From NCBI GenBank assembly GCA_008330645.1, contig VLTN01000004.1:124001-188000 (forward strand): 64,000 nt of DNA, given 5' to 3'. Shown piece by piece: positions 29,861 to 64,000 of this stretch. Position 1 is the first letter of the stretch; every line of letters starts with the position of its first letter. The stretch is from Cafeteria roenbergensis. Its lineage: Eukaryota; Sar; Bigyra; Bicosoecida; Cafeteriaceae. The notes beneath the pieces were generated by a model. It searched no databases. It was not told the DNA's origin and saw nothing but the letters and a program-made list of their open reading frames with translations. A program made the translations under genes and the position numbers.

Positions 29861-31279
29861 TCAGCGCGATGACGTAGCAGCCGCCGCATCGTCCCCTGCC
29901 GCGCGCGGCTTGAGGTGCTTGAGCACCCAGGGGTGCTTGCTGACCATGTCGAGGCGCATGCGGTCGGCCGGCGCGCGGCGCAAAATTCGCGAAATGAAGT
30001 CCCGCGCCTCCTCGGACACGTGGTTGGGGAACTGCAAGTCCACGCGCAGGATGCGGCGGTACGTCGCGGTGTTTCCCTCGGCCTCGAAGGGCGGCACGCC
30101 CACGATGAACTCGTAGGCAAGCACGCCCAGCGCCCAGACGTCCACGCGGTGGTCGTGCTCCTTGCCCTCGATCATCTCGGGCGGAAGGTAGTCGAGCGTC
30201 CCGCAAAGGGTCTTTCGCCTGGACGACGGAGAGTGGATCGACCAGCCGAAATCGGCAATCTTGAGCTCGCCGCGGTACCCGAGGAGCAAGTTCTCCGGCT
30301 TGATGTCGCGGTGGATCACGTGCTTGCTGTGGCAGTAGCGAAGGGCGCGCGAGAGGCTGTACACGTACTGCGCGGCCCTGCGCTCGCTGAACCGGCCGCG
30401 GCGCGTGAGCTCCTTGTACAGCTCGCCCTTGGGCGCGTACTCGATGATGAGGTACACTCGCCTTGCGTCCCAGAAGTAGCCGTAGAGGCGGAGGACGTTG
30501 CGGTGGCGCAGCTGCGACTGGATCTCCACCTCGCGCCGCAGCTGGTGCTCCACGTTGGCCTTGAGCAGCTGCCGCTTGTGCAGCACCTTGAGCGCCACGA
30601 TGAACTTGTGCTTCTTCTCGCGGCACAAGTACACGTTGCCTGCGGGCGCACACACAGAGAGAGCAGGGGGGGGGAGAGGGGGCGAGCGCGTGTGGGCGGG
30701 GGGCGCGTTGGGGGGGGGCGGGAGTGCGAGGCAGGGGACCGCGCGTGAGCGGCTGGTCCAGCGCCGCAGCTCGAGGGACGGCACAGCGCCGGCCACGCCC
30801 GGAGGCTGCGCGGGCGGCGGCGTGCCCGGACCGCACTGCCGGCGGGCCCAGGCTAGCCTGCGCTCCGCACCGCCCCCCCCCCCCTCCCCGGATCTGCCGG
30901 GGAGGGCGCGCGAACCGACACCGCCCGGTTCTCGGCCTTCATGCGCCCGCATGGTTGCACAGCCGCGCTCGGGCCGAGAGCGGCTCTTGCAAGCGGCCGA
31001 CAACCCGACAGCCTGCACCCCTGGCCAGCGGACGACACGGGCGCCCCTCCGCTCCCGGCCGCCGGGCTCACCGAACTTGCCCTTGCCCAGCGGGCGGCCG
31101 ATGTCAAAGTCTTCGAGGGACCAGCGCTTGGAGAGCACCCGCTGAGGGCCGCCGCCGTGCGTTGCGGGAGAGGCATGGCGAGCGTCCTCTTCCGAGCCGT
31201 CTGCCGCCCGCCCGGCCGCCGTTCGCACCAGAGCCGATGAAGACGCAGCCGATGAAGAGGAGGAGCTTCCAGCGGCACT
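29861..31279 (-). CDS. Aurora-type Ser/Thr kinase (5' exon unresolved)
   Basis: The mitotic kinase family is clear from [19 protein letters not shown] | [35 protein letters not shown] and [18 protein letters not shown] (Aurora activation loop with the conserved Thr). Supported exons are 31279-31072 and 30639-29861, joined in phase 1 inside the last Gly of the glycine loop. This gives 328 residues. The upstream part of the first listed exon ([15 protein letters not shown]...) has no ATG in frame and begins after a good acceptor (CCCTTGCAG), so at least one more 5' exon must exist between 31280 and about 31800. I could not choose it with confidence. The 432-base intron 30640-31071 is stopless and a multiple of three. 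It is head-to-head with a second Aurora-type kinase. Confidence 0.88.
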
Positions 31280-31808
31280 CTGCAAGGGCGGGGCAAGCGA
31301 TTGCGGGCGCAAGTGGCAGCGGGCGCACACTGGAACACGGCAAGCGCCCGGGGGCCGCTCCGGCGAGCGCGCCGCGACCCCGCAGGCCGGTCGGCGCCAG
31401 AATCCTCACAGAGGCTGCCTTTGGGGGCACCACCGGCGCAGCAGGGGCGATGTTGTCTGCGCGCAGGTCAAGGGCACGCGGAGGCGGGCGACCGGTTGTG
31501 GAGCATTCCGCTGCCTGCAAAGTCGGGCCACGCCAGAGCAGGCCAAGCGCGCCCGCCGGGCAGCGCGCATCCCTCACCCCTGGCCTCTGCCGCGCGGCCG
31601 AACACTGCCGTTCCCGCCATAGCGGCCGGAGTCGGCTGTTGGGAGCCGAGGCCGGGTGTGGCAACGGCCGCCAAGCCGACGCCGGCTCTGCCGAGCCGGG
31701 CTAGCTCCAGCCCCGCCCGTTGTTCCCGCCAGCCTGCAAAGCAGGAGGCGCTGGCAGTGGCGCAGACCGCTAAGGCCTTCATCACTTCGAGGCCGCAGGC
31801 TTGCGGCC
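31280..31808. promoter_or_regulatory. Shared 5' region of the two Aurora-type kinases
   Basis: This stretch holds the missing first exon(s) of the minus-strand kinase and the promoter of the plus-strand kinase. Minus-strand ATGs occur at 31506, 31570 and 31620. The one at 31620 is followed by a GTGAGG donor but in the wrong phase. The one at 31570 could reach the kinase only if a different AG is used as acceptor. Left unresolved. Confidence 0.4.
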
Positions 31809-33093
31809 ATGGCCTCAGCGTCTGCCTCCAAGCCGGCGCTCGGCGAGTCCTCCGCGAGCAATGCAGGGTCAACGAGCGGCAAGGCCGCTGCAGCGTCGGC
31901 CGCGGCGACGGCTGCCGCCCCAGCCAAGCCCGACTCTCTGAGCATCTCTGACTTTGCCATCGGCAAGCCGATCGGCTCGGGCAGGTACGGTGAGCATGGC
32001 GGTGGTTTGCTTCCGAGCCCAGGGCCGGCGGTGGTGGAGAACCACTGTCCCGGCAGGCTTGCCTTGTCGTCAACCGCAACGGGGCGCTCCTGATCTGCAT
32101 CGCGCTCGCCGGGACGTGCCCAGGACCGGATCCTGTGCCGTTTGCTGCGTTGGACCCAGTGGTACTGCCGCGTTCCCCCGCCGTGGGTGCTTGCGCGACC
32201 TGCGTCGCCATCCAGCCGCCCACTTAAGAGTCCCCTCCCCCACCCCCTGTGTGCACCTGGCCGCAGGCAAGGTGTTTCGCGTTAAGCACCTGGCCACCGG
32301 CAAGCTGATGGTCATGAAGGTAATCGACAAGAAGGAGGTGATTCGCGACGGCGTTGTGCACCAGCTCCGCCGGGAAATCGAGATTCACTCCCGCTGCCGC
32401 CACGAGAACATCGTCAAGTTCTTCTGCTACTTCCACGACGAGGAGCGCATCTGCATCGTGCTGGAGTACTGCAACGGCAAAACCCTCTTGGATCTGATGG
32501 CTCGCCAGCCGCAAGGGCGGGTCAACGAGGAGGCGGCGCGGCAGTTCCTGCAGCAGCTGGTGTCCGCGCTGACGTACCTCCGCGAGGGCAAGGCTGTGCC
32601 CATCATCCATCGCGACATCAAGCCGGAGAACATCCTTTTCGTCAAGAACAAGTCCACGGGGACGCTCACGCTCAAGCTGGCAGACTTTGGCTGGGCAGTG
32701 CAGCACGTTCCCACGTCCAAGCGCACCACGCTCTGCGGCACGCCCGAGTACCTTCCGCCCGAGGTGTGCCTTGCCGACAGGTACTCCGGCGCGTTTGACA
32801 TCTGGACGCTCGGCGTCCTCATGTACGAGATGCTTGTGGGGACGACGCCCTTCGCGGTGCGTGAGGACGAGTTGGAGGACGACGAGGACATCCAGCAAGC
32901 CATCGTGGACAAGATCCTCAGCACCAAGGTCATCCCGGTGCCGGACTACTTTAGCGACGAGGCCAGGGACCTCGTCCTGCGCCTCATGGACCGCAACCCG
33001 TCCACGCGCATTCTGCTGGAGGAGGTGGCACGCCACCCCTTCCTGACGGGCGAGCCCATGCCTGTCGAGTCTGAGGATGGCACCTCGGCCTGA
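31809..33093 (+). CDS. Aurora-like Ser/Thr kinase, 2 exons
   Basis: Exons 31809-31989 and 32267-33093 (phase 1) give 335 residues. After an Ala/Ser-rich 45-residue leader come ISDFAIGKPIGSGRYG | KVF (glycine loop), MVMKVIDKKEV with Lys78, [21 protein letters not shown] and KRTTLCGTPEYLPPEV. The DFGW and TTLCGTPEYLPPE wording is Aurora-like. Differences from its neighbour include an acidic insertion after TPFAVRED (ELEDDEDIQ) and a short insert before the DFG (FVKNKSTGTLTLKL). The intron sits at exactly the same codon and phase as in the opposite-strand kinase at 30640-31071. This suggests the two are ancient duplicates. The start is the first ATG of the exon, preceded by the shared spacer. 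Confidence 0.87.
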
Positions 33094-37896: not shown

Positions 37897-40800
37897 ATGG
37901 GACTCTGCGCGTCTAGTCCCTCGCCCGGTGAGTCCGTCCCACGCGAGTCCGGGCCTGGCGCGCCGGCCCGCGGGAGGAAGGCGCAGCTTTCGAGGAGGGG
38001 AAGGCGTCCCACGCTGCGGGGCCTGCGCCGCTGGCTCTGGGGCCAGGACACATCATGTGTCACGGGTCCATCGCTTTGGTTTTTCAGCAGCAGCGAGAAT
38101 CGGTGGCCACCGCGCAGGGAGCCTGACCCTCAACGCATTCGTGCCCCCTCCCCCCGCCCCTGCCCCCGGCGGCGCCCCCGCGACCTCGGCGATTTTCCCC
38201 TCGCGCAGAGAACCGATGTATCGACAAGACCCACTTTCGCGCTGAGCGGGTGGTCGGGCAGGTGAGGCGGCCGCAGCGGCTTTCCAGCTGCGTAGGCCAG
38301 CGACACGCCCTCCCCGGGGCGTCTTCTGGTTGCGGAGTCCTGCCGCACCCAGGCGCGCTGGTCCCCGCGTCCGCACTGCTGCAGCGGGATCCTAAGCGCT
38401 GCGCGAGCTGGCCCCGCCGGCGCGGACTTGGTTGGACAGGCGGGCCCGCAGCGGCAGGGAGCCCACCGAAGCCTCAACGCCCCTTCGTCGTCCGCCATCT
38501 CCCGCCGCTGCCTGCCTGCCTCCGCGCCCGCTACCCTCCCCGCCGCCGCCCCGATGTGGTCCGCAATGCAGGGTGGATTCGGAGTCGTGAACGCCGTTGT
38601 CAAGATCGTGGAGCCGGACGTGGGAAAGATGTTTGCGATGAAAGCGCTCAGGAAGCATGTGATTTTGGACAGGAATCACACGGAGATGGTCTTCCGGGAG
38701 CGAAACCTGCTGGCCCGCCTCAGGCACTCGAGGCTCGTGAACATGCACCACGCCTTCCAGGACGACAGCCATTTGTACATTGTCATGGACGCCTGCCTTG
38801 GCGGGGACCTCCACTACCAGATCATGCAGTCGCCGTCTCGGAGGTTCACAGAGGAGCAGGTGAGCCGACGTTTCGCTGCCGTCAGCCCGCGCACCACCCT
38901 GCCCAAGCGCAGGCAGGTCGTCCCCCGCCCCCCCCCACCGCCCACCGTGCCCACCTCGCCGCGCGAACGAGGCTGCGCGTCCTTCAACCAAGCCGTGGCT
39001 CGTGCTCCCGTCGCCCGCCACCAAGCGCAGACCAAGTTTTACGCCGTTTGCATCGTGCTCGCCCTCGACTACATGCATGGCCAGCGCGTGCTGCATCGTG
39101 ACATCAAGCCCGAGAACCTGCTGCTGGATGACACCGGGCAGCTGCGGATCACTGACCTGGGAGTGTCTGGCGAGCTGGACGAGGATGGGTGGTGCTTTTC
39201 AACCTCGGGAACGCGGCCATACATGGCACCCGAGGTGTTCATGAGCGGCCACAAGCACGGCATCCCGTCGGACTATTACAGCCTCGGGATCACGCTGCAC
39301 CAGTTCTTGACGGGGCAGCGGCCCTACCGCGCTACGCGGTCCAACCTCAAGAACATCGTGAAGATGGCGGCCTACGTGCCGCCGAGCAGCGTGAAGGACC
39401 GCGCGCATGCCAGGCGCGTCCTGGCGTCTGCCCAGGAGCGCAAGGCTCAGTCCGAGGAGTTCCACATCTCCCGTCGCCTGCGTGGGGTCAGCCCCGAGGG
39501 CATCGACTTCGTGAGGAGCCTTCTGGTTTGCAACGCCACCTTTCGCCTGGGCACAGCCGGCGTCGACGAGGTTCTCAGCCACCCGTGGCTCGCTGACATG
39601 GACATTGAGGGAATTCGCAGCGAGACGACCCCGGCCCCGTTCCGGCCGGACATGTCCCACGCCCAGTGCAATGTGTATGACTCGGACCTTGCACACCTGC
39701 TGCTGCACGGCGATGACTCCGCGCCGACGCTGCCCACACTGCTTCCCGAGGAGCAGGCCAAGTTCGTGGGGTACGACTTCAACACGTGCCCTGAAAACCG
39801 CCGCTCGCCGCCGGAGGACTCGGACCCAAGGTCATCGGACGCGAAGCGAAGCAAGGAGGCCGCCACTCGCACGGAGCACACGGCGGCATCTTCGGTGGGG
39901 ACTCACGGCGGCCGCGGCTCGGCGCCTGGATCTGCATCGGCGATGAGCGCTGTGAGCACCCTGCGAGCCGAGGCCAGCGGAGGCGCCCGGCTGCGGCCGG
40001 CGCCCATGACAACTTCTCGGTCGAGCCACTCCAAGCCGCAAACCGCCGCTGCTGTGCCCTGGCCGACCCCGCAGTCCCCCGCCGCTGCGACGCAGACGCG
40101 GTCCAAAAACGTTCCTGCGAGGGTCAAGCACTCGGCCGTGGCCCCGGCCTCCTTCGACTCCTCCCACCCTGACAGGTTCAGCGGGATGTACTCGGGGTCG
40201 GCAGACAGGCGAACACCCCAAGGCCGGCCCCGGTCGCAATCCATGGGCAGCACGGGCTCTGCAGGGTCGCACAGCCGGCAGGACCAGCCAGGGAAGAAGC
40301 ACAAGGCTGCCTCGCCGGCCTCCAGCAAGCGCGACTTGCGGGAGACCCGCAGCGCGGGCCTCTTGGTGCGAGGCTCGCCGAGCACCCAGCCGATCGCCCA
40401 CGCCAGGACGAGCGAGAGCAGCAGCAAGCCAGGCGGAGCGCAGGGCGGTCCCAGCGCGGGCGCGGGCACGCCCATGGTCCGGCCGGCGCACGCGCCGTCC
40501 TCGGACCTCCGCCCGGCTCGCAACGCCACAGAGGCGGCAGGCAAGGCGCTCGCCGGGGCGCGCGCCACTGCTGCCACTGGTTCAGGCAGGCCAGCGACCC
40601 GGGGCGCTTCCACGGGAGAGGCCATCGCGGCGACCTCACCGCAGGCCAACACACTCGTCGTGTCGTCGGGCAGGGTTGGAGTCGGAGGCGCCACGCGCCC
40701 GTCGCCGCCCTCCACGTCTGGGCCACGCAAGCAGGACGCTCACTTTGGCTCCCACCTGACGCCGGAGTCGTCCAGCCAAGCGTTCCGCTCCATGGGCTTG

Positions 40801-41424
40801 AGCAACAGAGGCGATTCCATTGGCCACTCCAGCATGCAAAGGCACGCCTCTCTCGTCGGCAGGGCGGCCATCGAGAGCCGTGCCGGGTCGTTTGTGTCGC
40901 GGGGATCGCTGCTGGCCTCGAGCCACGGGCCAGACATCGTGTCCATGCCAGGCTCCCTGGCAAGCATGGCCTCGTTCCTCGGCGATCACCCGCGCCGCGA
41001 CCCCTCGACTCGCGGCATCAGGCAACCGCGCCTGGGAGAGGGCACGGACCTGGGAGCAGGAGCCCGCGTGACCGAGTCGGACGACGACAGCTCCACCAGC
41101 CAAACTGCCAACGTGTTCGTTGTGAATCAGGCTGGCGGGTCGGGCTTCATGACGACCAACGGCCTGGGGCTGGGAGGCAGTGACTCGGATGTGACTGCGC
41201 TCGAAGACGCTGTCCCAGCGCCCAAGACGCGTGCCGCTGCTGCCTCTGCTGCAGCAGCTGCTTCGGCCCCTTCTCCGTCTCAGGGCGCTCACTCACAGCC
41301 CTTCCCCACGAGGAAGCCTGCAACGGCCGGAGTCGCCCCGATGGCAGTGGTCTCGGAAGCGCCTGAAAGGACGCCTGACACCTCGGCTCGCCTCTCAGGC
41401 GGGAACCGAACAGCAGCTGACTAG
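37897..41424 (+). CDS. STK32/YANK-like AGC kinase with N-terminal lipidation motif, 4 exons
   Basis: Exons 37897-37927, 38209-38261, 38572-38859 and 39031-41424 (phases 1, 0, 0) give 921 residues. Exon 1 encodes only MGLCASSPSP plus one base: an MGxCxS start, a classic site for N-myristoylation with palmitoylation. Exon 2 supplies IDKTHFRAERVVGQ, and exon 3 GGFGVVNAV (glycine loop), AMKALRK with Lys52, then FQDDSHLYIVMDACLGGDL, very like STK32. Exon 4 has [11 protein letters not shown] (Asp148), ITDLGVSG and TRPYMAPEV, then HPWLADMDIEGI and an AGC-type tail. DLG replaces DFG at 166-168. The last 500 residues are Ser/Ala/Pro-rich and disordered. The start is supported by the phase fit and by STK32 proteins also beginning MG. 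Plasma-membrane location is inferred. Confidence 0.86.
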
Positions 41425-41769: not shown

Positions 41770-44342
<2,573 letters not shown>

Positions 44343-48524: not shown

Positions 48525-48785
48525 CTACTCCTTGTTGCCGAAAGACCACTCCCACAGCTCGCCCGCGGCGCGACGAGGTGCGTTCCACAAGCTCGAAAGA
48601 GAGAGGCCGGACGCCCAGAAGCCGCCCACGACAACCAGCGAGACCACGCCATACCTGGCAATGGCTGCCACCGTCTCGTCGGTGACGAGGCCAAGGACCA
48701 GCTCGGGCTCCTTGTCCTTCTGCGCCCGCGCAGGACGACGCTGGCCCGGCTGCGCGCGGACGAGCTGCTGGGGCTTGCCCTGCAT
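48525..48785 (-). CDS. Possible small single-pass membrane protein
   Basis: A frame of 86 residues from ATG 48785. It has a charged N-terminal half (AQKDKEPELVLGLVTDET), one hydrophobic segment (ARYGVVSLVVVGGFWASGL) and a Trp-rich end (AGELWEWSFGNKE). The order is typical of small mitochondrial or ER inner-membrane subunits, but I recognise no family. An acceptor-like GCGCGCAG just inside the frame suggests the first 10 or so residues could be replaced by an upstream exon. The frame lies in the gap between URM1 and the kinesin gene, where no plus-strand gene competes. Confidence 0.45.
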   Translation of the reverse strand: MQGKPQQLVRAQPGQRRPARAQKDKEPELVLGLVTDETVAAIARYGVVSLVVVGGFWASGLSLSSLWNAPRRAAGELWEWSFGNKE

Positions 48786-49077
48786 GGCGTGCGGCCTCGG
48801 TTCGCGACGAGGACTGCCTTTGCGGCAGTGTGGTGCCCGCTTGGTAGCCCAAGGGAGCGAGTGTCGCCTTCTGGGGCTCGCCTTCGCTGGCGGAAACGGG
48901 ACCAACAAAACCTTGGCGACGCTCAGCTCTGCTCGCCGGCTGCGCGGCCAGGCCTGTGCAGGCGGACCGAACCCCACTCGCGCGCACTGCCACGGAGAGG
49001 AGGCCCGGACCGGGTGGCTGTTGCTGCTCGGTGGGCAGGTGGGACCGTGGGTGCCGCACAAGGATCTGGGGCCGGCA

Positions 49078-52000
49078 ATGAGCCAGCCCGATTCGGAGCC
49101 AACGACGCTCGAGGGCTACCGCGAGGAATGCGTGCGCCTCCGCGCTCTCATGCAGCAAATGGAAGCAGATACCGAAGAGGTGGAGGCTATGAATAAGGAG
49201 TACGAGGACTCACTGCTCGAGGAAATGCAAGAGTTGCGTGCGAAACTGATGGCTGCGACTAGTGCTGCGCCCCACGCGGCCGGCGAGACGCGTGATGACG
49301 AGGGCCAGACGGAATCCCCGGGAGGAAGCAACCTGCTGGACATACAGAGCGCACTGGATTCTGCCAAGGAAGCGACAAGGAGCGCCCAAGCGAAGCTCGC
49401 CGAGGCTCAGGAGCGGACTGATTCCGCTGAGGAAACTGCCGTGCTTGCAACGCAGGAGGCACGGGTATGGCAAGAGCGCTGTGATGCGCTTCAGCGTGAG
49501 GTTGTGCTCCTGCGGGGCCGTGCTGGTAGCTCGAGCGAGCCGTCGGAGAGCGAGCGGGCGATGCGGGACCGCGTCGAGGTGAGCGAGGCGGAGGCGGCGT
49601 CGGCACGGCGGGAAGTCCGAACGCTTCGCGCTCGCTTGAGCAAGCTCAAGTTGCGCGTCGGCAATTCGGAATCGGGCTCTGGTGACGATGCAGCCGCAGC
49701 GTCGTCCAAGCAGGCCGAGGAGGCGGCAGCGGCCACGGCCAAGCAGGCCGAGGAGGCGGCAGCGGCCACGGCCAAGCAGGCCGAGGAGGCGGCAGCGGCC
49801 ACGGCCAAGCAGGCCGAGGAAGCGGCAGCGGCCACGGCCAAGCAGGCCGAGGAGGCGGCAGCGGCGATCACAGCAGAGGCGGAGGAGGCGGCAGCGGCCA
49901 CGGCCAAGCAGGCCGAGGAGGCGGCAGCGGCCACGGCCAAGCAGGCTGAGGAGGCGGCAGCGGCCACGGCCAAGCAGGCCGAGGAGGCGGCAGCGGCCAC
50001 GGCCAAGCAGGCCGAGGAGGCGGCAGCGGCCACGGCCAAGCAGGCCGAGGAGGCGGCAGCGGCCACGGCCAAGCAGGCCGAGGAGGCGGCAGCGGCCACG
50101 GCCAAGCAGGCCGAGGAAGCGGCAGCGGCCACGGCCAAGCAGGCCGAGGAGGCGGCAGCGGCGATCACAGCAGAGGCGGAGGAGGCGGCAGCGGCCACGG
50201 CCAAGCAGGCCGAGGAGGCGGCAGCGGCCACGGCCAAGCAGGCCGAGGAAGCGGCAGCGGCCACGGCCAAGCAGGCCGAGGAGGCGGCAGCGGCGATCAC
50301 AGCAGAGGCGGAGGAGGCGGCAGCGGCCACGGCCAAGCAGGCCGAGGAGGCGGCAGCGGCCACGGCCAAGCAGGCCGAGGAGGCGGCAGCGGCCACGGCC
50401 AAGCAGGCCGAGGAGGCGGCAGCGGCCACGGCCAAGCAGGCCGAGGAGGCGGCAGCGGCCACGGCCAAGCAGGCCGAGGAGGCGGCAGCGGCCACGGCCA
50501 AGCAGGCCGAGGAGGCGGCAGCGGCCACGGCCAAGCAGGCCGAGGAGGCGGCAGCGGCCACGGCCAAGCAGGCCGAGGAGGCGGCAGCGGCCACGGCCAA
50601 GCAGGCCGAGGAGGCGGCAGCGGCCACGGCCAAGCAGGCCGAGGAAGCGGCAGCGGCCACGGCCAGCAGGCCGAGGAGGCGGCAGCGGCGATCACAGCAG
50701 AGGCGAGGAGGCGGCAGCGGCCACGGCCAAGCAGGCCGAGGAGGCGGCAGCGGCCACGGCCAAGCAGGCGGAGGCGGCAGCGGCCACGGCCAAGCAGCGA
50801 GGAGGCGGCAGCGGCCACGGCCAAGCAGGCAGGAGGCGGCAGCGGCCACGGCCAAGCAGGAGGAGGCGGCAGCGGCCACGGCCAAGCAGGCCGAGGAGGC
50901 GGCAGCGCCACGGCCAAGCAGGCCGAGGAGGCGGCAGCGGCCACGGCCAAGCAGGCCGAGGAGGCGGCAGCGGCGATCACAGCAGAGGCGGAGGCACTGC
51001 TCAGCGAGGCAGAGTCACTTCGCAAGGAGGCTGATGACGAGGCCGCGGCTGCCGTGGAGCGAAAGGCCCAAGCGAGCAGCGAAACCGCACCGGCGTCCGC
51101 CCACCCTGCTGCGCTTCAGGCGGCTGAGCTGCTCAAACAGCTGGAGGCGGCCACGGCCGAGGCCGACGCGCAGCGTCAGCGTGCTGAGGACGCTGAGACG
51201 GCCGCCCGGCACGCGGCCTCTGAGGCTGAGGCTGCGGTCTCGGCCATCGTGGATGAGGTGCGGGCGCTCGCCGCACAGACTGCGGCAGCTAAGAGCGTCG
51301 TCGACGACCTGACAACGCGCCTCTCGACTGAGAGGCGCAACCGCCTGGCGGCGGAGAAGGCCCTGAGCCTCGCTGCGCTACCTGCCACCCGGCCTCGCCC
51401 TGCGCCGGGCGCAGCCGCCCGCAGGCTGCAGGCTGCCGCGCCGCCACAGCCACCAGGGACCGCGCCGGCAGGCTCAGACCCGCCGGAGCCAGCGGCTGGG
51501 GCGCCGAGCGAGACACCCGTCATTGCGTCGTCCCCGTCTGTTGCGGACGGCATGGAGCCTGCCGACGATGCTGAGACGGCGCCGGCAACGGAGTCCGCAG
51601 CGGCAGAGCCTGAGATCACCCTGCCGCACACGTCGGCTGCTTGTGCTGCCTCTGCCGGAACTGAGACAAGTGCAACCGCAACCCCGCCGCCCCCGCTGGT
51701 GCGGGGCCCGGGACTCGAAGCGGCAGCCGCTGGCGCCCCTGGCCACGCCGAGCGCAGCAGCACCTCTGAGACAGCGGGGGCCGTGACGCCAGGCCGCCTC
51801 CCGTCCCTCGCTCCCTCCGCCCCGGACCTCTCCGCACCGCCCTCGTCGGCCAGCAGCATTGCGCCTCTCCAGCCCCTCGCGCCACTGTCCCCGACAGAGC
51901 TGACGATGCGCCGCCTGGATGCAGAGGCCGCCGCCGCAGGGCCCCTTCGCTTGCCCGGGGAGCCCGACCAAGCCGACTCGCCCCCTTCGCTGCGAGGCGC

Positions 52001-60133: not shown

Positions 60134-60205
60134 GCCTTCTTAGCTCAGTTGGTAGAGCGTTTGACTCGTAATCAAAAGGTCAGTGGTTCGACTCCGCTAG
60201 AAGGC
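60134..60205 (+). tRNA. tRNA-Thr (anticodon CGT)
   Basis: A complete cloverleaf of 72 bases without intron. The acceptor stem is GCCTTCT/AGAAGGC, D arm GCTC-AGTTGGTA-GAGC, anticodon stem TTTGA/TCAAA with loop CTCGTAA (anticodon CGT), T arm AGTGG-TTCGACT-CCGCT. CCA is not encoded. Internal promoters fit: box A TAGCTCAGTTGG and box B GGTTCGACTCC. It reads ACG codons, which are frequent in this GC-rich genome. Confidence 0.97.
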
Positions 60206-60209
60206 ACTC

Positions 60210-60214
60210 TTTTT
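60210..60214 (+). terminator. RNA polymerase III terminator of tRNA-Thr
   Basis: A run of five T four bases after the tRNA, the standard Pol III stop. Confidence 0.8.
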
Positions 60215-60646
60215 GTTTCTGCCTTGACTTTTGTGCACAACAAGCCGCCAGTGCCTTAGAATGCGTCTGCCAAGGCACTGCTGTGGTTCAAAGAGCAGGG
60301 CAAGTCAATGCTGCCGTCGCGCGCGGGAGCCCTCGGCCCGGCCGTCGCGCGCGGCTCCTCCCGACTGCGCGCGGCCCCAGCCCGCAAACGACGCCACCCG
60401 CGGCGCTCCTGCGGCCCGCTCGCCGACGAGGGGGTGCCGGCGCGAGGGCCCGCGCGCAGCCGCACGGCGCCCGTTGCCGGCCGGGCAGCAGCAACAGAGC
60501 CCATCACTCGGTCCGGGGGTGGGAGTGAAGCACCATCGATCGCGCGCTCAGCAGAGCCGCACTCCACGCACGCGCCCCCTCCCCGCGCGCCCGGCCGCCC
60601 CCCCGGGACCGCACTCTCCTCCCTCGAGAAAGAGACTCCCCCGAAC

Positions 60647-61083
60647 ATGCCCGGCAAGAGTGAGCGCCGCGCCTCGCCGTCGACGGGGCGCCCACCGCCC
60701 GGCGCCCGGGACTCGCCACGCACGTGCTCCACGGAACCGTGGATCGCGCGACCGCCCTGCCCCCCCCGTTCCGTGCTCTTCCCCCTCCCCCGCGCGCAGA
60801 GGATGCTGCCCCCAAGGCTGGTGCCAAGGCTGGCGCCGCTGGCGCGAAGGCGTGAGTCCAGCCCGCGCGGTGCGCCCCCGCGAGGCCAACGGAATGCTCC
60901 GCCACGACGGCCCGCCGTCGTCCCGACCGGCGCGCGAACAGAGGCACGAGCCCCTCTCCGCCTCCATGGCGCCCTGCCCCTCCACCGCGTGCCCGTCGCA
61001 ACCATTCCTGTGTCCGCAGCAAGCCCGCCGCCACCAAGGGCGGCGCCAAGGCCGCTGCCCCCAAGGGCAAGACCGACGCCTGA
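60647..61083 (+). CDS. 42-residue Lys/Ala-rich peptide gene, array copy 1, 3 exons
   Basis: Exons 60647-60659, 60800-60851 and 61020-61083 join in phases 1 and 2 to give 42 residues and a TGA. It starts MPGKKDAAPKAGAKAG and ends GGAKAAAPKGKTDA. Composition is almost only Ala, Lys, Gly and Pro, with PK and AK doublets as in linker-histone C-terminal tails; no globular winged-helix domain is present. Donors GTGAGC and GTGAGT and acceptors GCGCGCAG and GTCCGCAG match the splice signals of the tubulin and other genes here. Neither intron can be avoided without destroying the Lys/Ala frame. Globular-domain-free H1-like proteins are known in kinetoplastids, ciliates and dinoflagellates, so a chromatin role is a reasonable inference. 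Alternatives are a small ribosomal or nucleolar basic peptide, or an N-terminal fragment of something larger. Confidence 0.68.
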
Positions 61084-61758
61084 GAGCGACCCAGCTGCAA
61101 CCCTCCGTCCGCGCCCGGCGCTGCCGGCTCGCCCCGTGCTGGCCTCGCGCCTTGACGGAGCGCCGCGTCTCCCGGGAGCGGGCTGGGGCGGGCGCCTGCG
61201 CGCGAGTCACCGCCTCTGGGCATGTGTGCACGCGCGTGTGCGCATGGGGCGTGTGCGCATGGGGCGTGTGCGGCCCCCCGTTGAAGACTGTGCGTGGGTT
61301 TGGTTGCAGACGAGAACGGATGCACGGGTGGCGGCCAGCTGTGCGGGAACAAACACCGCGCCTCGAGTGTCCGCCATCGGGCGCGAACACGCCGGGGATG
61401 TGGGCGAGGGCGCCCCGTGCCGCAGCCGTCGCGCGCGGGAGCCCTCGGCCCGGCTGTCGCGCGCGGCTCCTCCCGACTGCGCGCGGCCCCAGCCCGCAAA
61501 CGACGCCACCCGCGGCGCTCCTGCGGCCCGCTCGCCGACGAGGGGGTGCCGGCGCGAGGGCCCGCGCGCAGCCACACGGCGCCCGTTGCCGGCCGGGCAG
61601 CAGCAACAGAGCCCATCACTCGGTCCGGGGGTGGGAGTGAAGCACCATCGATCGCGCGCTCAGCAGAGCCGCACTCCACGCACGCGCCCCCTCCCCGCGC
61701 GCCCGGCCGCCCCCCCGGGACCGCACTCTCCTCCCTCGAGAAAGAGACTCCCCCGAAC

Positions 61759-62197
61759 ATGCCCGGCAAGAGTGAGCGCCGCGCCTCGCCGTCGACGGGG
61801 CGCCCACCGCCCGGCGCCCGGGACTCGCCACGCAAGTGCTCCACGGAACCGTGGATCGCGCGACCGCCCTGCCCCCCCCCGTTCCGTGCTCTTCCCCTTC
61901 CCACCGCGCGCAGAGGATGCTGCCCCCAAGGCTGGTGCCAAGGCTGGCGCCGCTGGCGCGAAGGCGTGAGTCCAGCCCGCGCGGTGCGCCCCCGCGAGGC
62001 CAACGGAATGCTCCGCCACGACGGCCCGCCGTCGTCCCGACCGGCGCGCGAACAGAGGCACGAGCCCCTCTCCGCCTCCATGGCGCCCTGCCCCTCCACC
62101 GCGTGCCCGTCGCAACCATTCCTGTGTCCGCAGCAAGCCCGCCGCCACCAAGGGCGGCGCCAAGGCCGCTGCCCCCAAGGGCAAGACCGACGCCTGA
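61759..62197 (+). CDS. 42-residue Lys/Ala-rich peptide gene, array copy 2
   Basis: Exons 61759-61771, 61914-61965 and 62134-62197 encode the same 42 residues as copy 1, with identical exon sequence. Intron 1 is two bases longer owing to a longer C run and has an extra T/A change near its acceptor (CTTCCCACCGCGCGCAG). Confidence 0.68.
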
Positions 62198-62872
62198 GAG
62201 CGACCCAGCTGCAACCCTCCGTCCGCGCCCGGCGCTGCCGGCTCGCCCCGTGCTGGCCTCGCGCCTTGACGGAGCGCCGCGTCTCCCGGGAGCGGGCTGG
62301 GGCGGGCGCCTGCGCGCGAGTCACCGCCTCTGGGCGTGTGTGCACGCGCGTGTGCGCATGGGGCGTGTGCGCATGGGGCGTGTGCGGCCCCCCGTTGAAG
62401 ACTGTGCGTGGGTTTGGTTGCAGACGAGAACGGATGCACGGGTGGCGGCCAGCTGTGCAGGAACAAACACCGCGCCTCGAGTGTCCGCCATCGGGCGCGA
62501 ACACGCCGGGGATGTGGGCGAGGGCGCCCCGTGCCGCAGCCGTCGCGCGCGGGAGCCCTCGGCCCGGCTGTCGCGCGCGGCTCCTCCCGACTGCGCGCGG
62601 CCCCAGCCCGCAAACGACGCCACCCGCGGCGCTCCTGCGGCCCGCTCGCCGACGAGGGGGTGCCGGCGCGAGGGCCCGCGCGCAGCCGCACGGCGCCCGT
62701 TGCCGGCCGGGCAGCAGCAACAGAGCCCATCACTCGGTCCGGGGGTGGGAGTGAAGCACCATCGATCGCGCGCTCAGCAGAGCCGCACTCCACGCACGCG
62801 CCCCCTCCCCGCGCGCCCGGCCGCCCCCCCGGGACCGCACTCTCCTCCCTCGAGAAAGAGACTCCCCCGAAC

Positions 62873-63310
62873 ATGCCCGGCAAGAGTGAGCGCCGCGCCT
62901 CGCCGTCGACGGGGCGCCCACCGCCCGGCGCCCGGGACTCGCCACGCAAGTGCTCCACGGAACCGTGGATCGCGCGACCGCCCTGCCCCCCCCGTTCCGT
63001 GCTCTTCCCCTTCCCACCGCGCGCAGAGGATGCTGCCCCCAAGGCTGGTGCCAAGGCTGGCGCCGCTGGCGCGAAGGCGTGAGTCCAGCCCGCGCGGTGC
63101 GCCCCCGCGAGGCCAACGGAATGCTCCGCCACGACGGCCCGCCGTCGTCCCGACCGGCGCGCGAACAGAGGCACGAGCCCCTCTCCGCCTCCATGGCGCC
63201 CTGCCCCTCCACCGCGTGCCCGTCGCAACCATTCCTGTGTCCGCAGCAAGCCCGCCGCCACCAAGGGCGGCGCCAAGGCCGCTGCCCCCAAGGGCAAGAC
63301 CGACGCCTGA
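62873..63310 (+). CDS. 42-residue Lys/Ala-rich peptide gene, array copy 3
   Basis: Exons 62873-62885, 63027-63078 and 63247-63310 encode the same 42 residues. It is nearly identical to copy 2, including introns. Confidence 0.68.
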
Positions 63311-63985
63311 GAGCGACCCAGCTGCAACCCTCCGTCCGCGCCCGGCGCTGCCGGCTCGCCCCGTGCTGGCCTCGCGCCTTGACGGAGCGCCGCGTCTCCC
63401 GGGAGCGGGCTGGGGCGGGCGCCTGCGCGCGAGTCACCGCCTCTGGGCGTGTGTGCACGCGCGTGTGCGCATGGGGCGTGTGCGCATGGGGCGTGTGCGG
63501 CCCCCCGTTGAAGACTGTGCGTGGGTTTGGTTGCAGACGAGAACGGATGCACGGGTGGCGGCCAGCTGTGCAGGAACAAACACCGCGCCTCGAGTGTCCG
63601 CCATCGGGCGCGAACACGCCGGGGATGTGGGCGAGGGCGCCCCGTGCCGCAGCCGTCGCGCGCGGGAGCCCTCGGCCCGGCTGTCGCGCGCGGCTCCTCC
63701 CGACTGCGCGCGGCCCCAGCCCGCAAACGACGCCACCCGCGGCGCTCCTGCGGCCCGCTCGCCGACGAGGGGGTGCCGGCGCGAGGGCCCGCGCGCAGCC
63801 GCACGGCGCCCGTTGCCGGCCGGGCAGCAGCAACAGAGCCCATCACTCGGTCCGGGGGTGGGAGTGAAGCACCATCGATCGCGCGCTCAGCAGAGCCGCA
63901 CTCCACGCACGCGCCCCCTCCCCGCGCGCCCGGCCGCCCCCCCGGGACCGCACTCTCCTCCCTCGAGAAAGAGACTCCCCCGAAC

Positions 63986-64000
63986 ATGCCCGGCAAGAGT
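63986..64000 (+). CDS. Lys/Ala-rich peptide gene, array copy 4, cut by window end
   Basis: Only exon 1 (63986-63998) and the GT of the first donor are inside the window. Upstream sequence matches the other units. Confidence 0.65.

Follow-up and report, generated by a model that had tools for sequence, protein, structure and literature searches.

A tandem array of three-exon genes, probably expressed, for an unusually small basic peptide with a possible role in chromatin

What is encoded by the tandem repeat that closes the 64,000-nucleotide stretch of DNA analysed here (the window)? From position 60313 to the window end at 64000, the plus strand carries a head-to-tail array (Table 1) of which 3.3 copies are visible, the fourth unit being cut by the window end. 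A preliminary description of this locus had reported at least 3.3 units of about 1,113 bp, each with the same spliceable three-exon frame for a 42-residue, histone-tail-like peptide. The unit lengths bear this layout out and the exon junctions that were given for unit 1 (60659/60800 and 60851/61020) are exact. We therefore asked whether the frame is a gene, and what its product may do.

Table 1. Array units and three-exon genes at the end of the window
Feature	Positions	Strand	Remarks
Array unit 1	60313..61424	+	1112 bp; edge copy, most diverged
Unit 1 exon 1 (coding part)	60647..60659	+	334 unit nt upstream without ATG
Unit 1 intron 1	60660..60799	+	140 bp, GTGAGC...CGCGCAG; both between-unit indels inside
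Unit 1 exon 2	60800..60851	+	
Unit 1 intron 2	60852..61019	+	168 bp, GTGAGT...TCCGCAG
Unit 1 exon 3 with TGA stop	61020..61083	+	
Array unit 2	61425..62538	+	1114 bp
Unit 2 exon 1	61759..61771	+	
Unit 2 exon 2	61914..61965	+	
Unit 2 exon 3 with stop	62134..62197	+	
Array unit 3	62539..63651	+	1113 bp
Unit 3 exon 1	62873..62885	+	
Unit 3 exon 2	63027..63078	+	
Unit 3 exon 3 with stop	63247..63310	+	
Array unit 4 (partial)	63652..64000	+	at least 349 bp; exon 1 start at 63986

The coding exons of each full unit measure 13, 52 and 64 nt, stop codon included, and together encode the peptide MPGKKDAAPKAGAKAGAAGAKAKPAATKGGAKAAAPKGKTDA of 42 amino acids, which is identical in all three full units. 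Both introns have the same borders in these three units, GTGAGC..CAG and GTGAGT..CAG, and in none of the four units does another ATG occur upstream of the exon 1 ATG. The peptide consists mainly of Ala (16), Lys (10), Gly (7) and Pro (4), with a mass of 3.8 kDa, a pI of 10.4 and a charge of about +7.4. Its lysine share is 24% with one KK pair, and eight of the ten lysines stand singly between A, G, P or T residues. An exact 12-bp repeat is common to exons 2 and 3 (60805–60816 and 61054–61065), embedded in 24 bp that are 83% identical, with the motif AAPK appearing twice; this is a hint of growth through internal duplication.

Over 1114 aligned columns, units 1 and 2 differ at eight positions, units 1 and 3 at six, and units 2 and 3 at two; eight columns are variable among the three full units. 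At about 99% likeness, conservation between units is uninformative on constraint. The preliminary description had stressed that all differences lie outside the 129 coding bases. This is correct for all eight variable columns, but eight columns would miss 129 of about 1113 bases by chance with a probability of 0.37, and the observation was therefore rejected as evidence for coding. The differences include two 1-bp indels, and because both fall in intron 1, they disrupt frames extending over several units and leave the three-exon frame intact; a single protein reading through several units was rejected on this ground. Unequal exchange would yield a more diverged copy at the array edge, such as unit 1. 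The high copy number assumed earlier is not borne out by the 3.3 copies visible. The 3' part of each unit also holds a 15-bp minisatellite, GCGTGTGCGCATGGG, in 2.6–3.7 copies (61234–61272 in unit 1 and the equivalent place in units 2 and 3).

How often such a frame arises by chance was estimated by enumerating one-, two- and three-exon models of 35–120 amino acids under a splice rule derived from the host (donors GTG[AC]G or GTAAG, acceptors CAG). One unit gave three models on the plus strand and one on the minus strand, and the single model passing either of two composition tests (the four commonest residues making up at least 87%, or K+A+G+P at least 85% with K at least 18%) was the 42-residue peptide. 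No comparable low-complexity model was found under this rule among 10,407 models from 214 control stretches (107 half-overlapping places of the same length in the rest of the window, each read on both strands) or among 42,789 models from 1000 dinucleotide shuffles, figures which count as supports and not as clean p-values, since the thresholds were set after the peptide had been seen. Two other splice rules agree (0/214 controls with 0/300 shuffles, and 0/214 with 0/1000); these excluded GTGAGG, the donor of two of the three beta-tubulin introns of the window, and its admission by the host-derived rule left the outcome unchanged. CpG is rarer in the exons (12 in 128 nt) than in the remaining unit (161 in 984 nt; p=0.04).

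A yardstick for splicing is provided by the beta-tubulin gene at 41773–43930 on the minus strand, identified by a PDB search, which has three introns within its first 55 codons. Placed by means of the conserved protein, these introns have the donors GTGAGG, GTGAGC and GTGAGG, acceptors GCAG and lengths of 158, 163 and 490 bp; short early exons are thus present elsewhere in this genome. An intron of about 160 bp in the gene for a Band_7 protein, read by eye, has the borders GTGCGT...CCGCAG. The putative introns of the peptide gene (GTGAGC/GTGAGT...GCAG) fit the beta-tubulin splice pattern and the usual size.

Tubulin is an abundant protein, and NCG codons make up only 5 of 65 Ala, Pro and Thr codons in beta-tubulin, compared to a pooled 132 of 342 for six further named genes (p=2.5e-7), which indicates strong avoidance. 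The peptide has one NCG among 22 such codons (p=0.0009 versus the six genes). In the individual six genes the counts are 15/30, 22/42, 21/65, 21/49, 50/136 and 3/20; the last, an exon of the PEMT type, is NCG-poor as well, yet its overall synonymous-codon score is low. This score compares tubulin usage with the usage of the six genes, the amino acids being given. The peptide scores 8.35. When 20,000 synonymous versions were drawn from six-gene usage, none reached this value; with tubulin usage, 24.5% of the draws score no higher than the peptide. Nor was 8.35 reached by any of 276 gene segments of 42 codons, 68 of them from the six genes on which the score had also been trained and 208 from two long, Pfam-unmatched frames which had not entered the training, or by any of 110 stretches of the unit taken from outside the exons. 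With one gene, beta-tubulin, standing for the abundant class, the match supports both a coding frame and an abundant product, as the preliminary description had supposed, and the three-exon gene is probably highly expressed. We are thus confident that the array contains a real, tandemly repeated gene whose product, a basic peptide of unusually small size, is probably abundant.

These results also bear on two readings in which the 42 residues would not be a protein of their own. A satellite or non-coding RNA repeat with a chance frame would be compatible with units too alike for constraint to show. Against this speak the beta-tubulin-like codons, the empty controls and shuffles, and the Rfam searches: the whole window at the gathering threshold yielded only a tRNA outside the array, and a search of 60208–62650 at E<=5 nothing, so that a known RNA gene was rejected. 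We regard a non-coding repeat as improbable. A larger protein of which the exons would be part, for example through a terminal copy with a folded domain beyond the window, is conceivable in so far as the array runs off the window and its far end is out of view. It is highly improbable, since the 1-bp indels break multi-unit frames and spare the three-exon frame, and since no Pfam family matched at the curated cut-off in ten of the 21 listed array frames, a set that included most of the longest and left out a 352-aa frame on the minus strand. Two weak matches below threshold (E=0.051 and 0.1) lie in one plus-strand array frame.

Searches with the peptide itself were negative. No Pfam family matched at E<=10, and PDB and NCBIfam gave no match. 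There is accordingly no Pfam match to the winged-helix globular domain that defines canonical linker histones H1/H5, and neither a Pfam nor a PDB match to the histone fold of core histones. Within the window, the best match of the unit outside the array had E=0.056 (blastn); for the peptide it was E=0.001 (tblastn, filters off), where the leading matches are rich in Ala and contain almost no Lys. Three peptide patterns found six, zero and zero loci in viral contigs. The six were rejected as relatives, as they share only the ATKGGAKA of the pattern within otherwise unlike frames (two of the six being the same frame), and so was the one locus that a pattern found in prokaryote contigs, a Methylophilus frame elsewhere unlike the peptide. 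As the contig collections consisted of viruses and prokaryotes, this absence of relatives says little. A text search with four pieces of the peptide returned no papers, and among the matches listed from the open-licence literature none reported this peptide or a linker-histone-like protein this short.

By composition, the peptide can be likened to H1 of Trypanosoma brucei, which is described as free of a globular domain, with Lys, Ala and Pro abundant in its single domain, and as encoded by five genes in polymorphic arrays (PMC3486875). The array peptide is likewise short, single-domain and rich in Lys, Ala and Pro, with no domain match, and its genes are arrayed. It differs by more Gly, a length of 42 residues and two introns, and its 24% lysine with one KK falls below the values of two published 15-residue T. 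brucei H1 peptides, each with 40% lysine and three KK. TgH1-like of Toxoplasma gondii is also small, basic and devoid of a globular domain, but has 91 amino acids, so that the array peptide is less than half as long (PMC9769792). In the brown alga Sargassum horneri, six linker histones of 18.2–27.8 kDa, aligned over the globular domain, are reported; their C-terminal tails (26–38% Lys, 0–1.9% Arg) are Lys-rich and Arg-poor like the array peptide, which at 3.8 kDa and with no globular domain is otherwise different (PMC10858212). The bacterial H1-like proteins, such as Hc2 and AlgP, are reported to share the basic, Lys-rich and repetitive character, but are bacterial and, in the case of Hc2, 165–237 amino acids long.

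Can the peptide then be a linker histone without a globular domain, as was first proposed? The precedent of arrayed, globular-domain-free H1 genes in T. brucei (PMC3486875) favours this idea; the missing family match and the mostly single lysines weaken the linker-histone identity. We would give even chances to the view that this basic peptide acts in chromatin in the way of a linker histone. Under such a model, a tandemly amplified, spliced gene, its copies transcribed and kept alike by unequal exchange, would produce a 42-residue basic and probably unstructured peptide that could bind chromatin as would a linker histone of which only the basic tail is left. Its charge of about +7 would bind DNA phosphates, and acetylation of single lysines between small residues could tune the binding. 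The more specific proposal of a lineage-specific minimal linker histone, i.e. a bulk chromatin component of just 42 residues from tandem spliced genes, with acetylation-ready single lysines as in a free core-histone tail, is tentative and, taken as a whole, rather doubtful.

Two other functions have to be weighed against a role as linker histone. An abundant, disordered basic peptide might act outside chromatin, in ribosome or RNA binding, in polyphosphate binding or in the stress protection of proteins, and we consider this unlikely but deserving of attention. The codon evidence bears on abundance, not on location, and is equally compatible with chromatin and with a nucleolar or cytosolic role; on the other hand, the composition is closest to that of histone tails. 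For stress protection, hydrophilins offer a comparison, being defined by more than 6% Gly and a hydrophilicity above 1: the peptide passes in Gly (7/42), but its GRAVY of -0.62 falls short in hydrophilicity. TgH1-like, for its part, is found in the nucleolus as well and associates with ribosomal proteins (PMC9769792). The spacing of the lysines suggests yet another function. Acetylated core-histone tails carry single lysines between such small residues, and because eight of the ten lysines follow this pattern, the peptide might be a free mimic of a core-histone tail (H2B, or H3/H4 without the fold) which serves as a decoy or reservoir for acetylation enzymes and is no linker histone. No histone chain in PDB matched at E<=10, in a phmmer search that may miss low-complexity similarity, and we think such a mimic improbable.

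Gene finders easily overlook a spliced gene of this length, and an abundant chromatin peptide could therefore remain unannotated. If the product proved to be a bulk chromatin protein, the smallest size known for linker-histone-like proteins would drop, and one could test directly whether a bare basic tail without a folded domain suffices to organise nucleosomes.

The surroundings of the array are eukaryotic DNA with intron-bearing genes and a GC content of 65–76% (in 2-kb steps). For Cafeteria, about 70% GC and 1.67–1.89 introns per gene are given in PMC6972860; the roughly 70% GC of the window and its introns are consistent with this genus, and other GC-rich protists would also fit. The comparison of beta-tubulin with PDB chains does not narrow this choice. 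Besides beta-tubulin, the window holds genes for the Band_7 protein, three protein kinases, a WW/FERM protein and an exon of a PEMT/ICMT-type methyltransferase, the FERM_M and PEMT/ICMT matches lying just below the Pfam cut-offs. The three kinase frames are clustered between 29864 and 41421 (29864–31405 on the minus strand, 31942–33090 and 38296–41421 on the plus strand). A tRNA-Thr (CGT) gene is located at 60134–60207 on the plus strand, about 105 bp before the array, and is absent from the repeat units. Another repetitive element, a 33-bp repeat in about 39 copies with 92% matches (49706–50974, plus strand), lies inside a 926-aa frame (48532–51312), where it encodes an 11-residue repeat rich in Ala, Glu and Lys, possibly that of a long helical protein.
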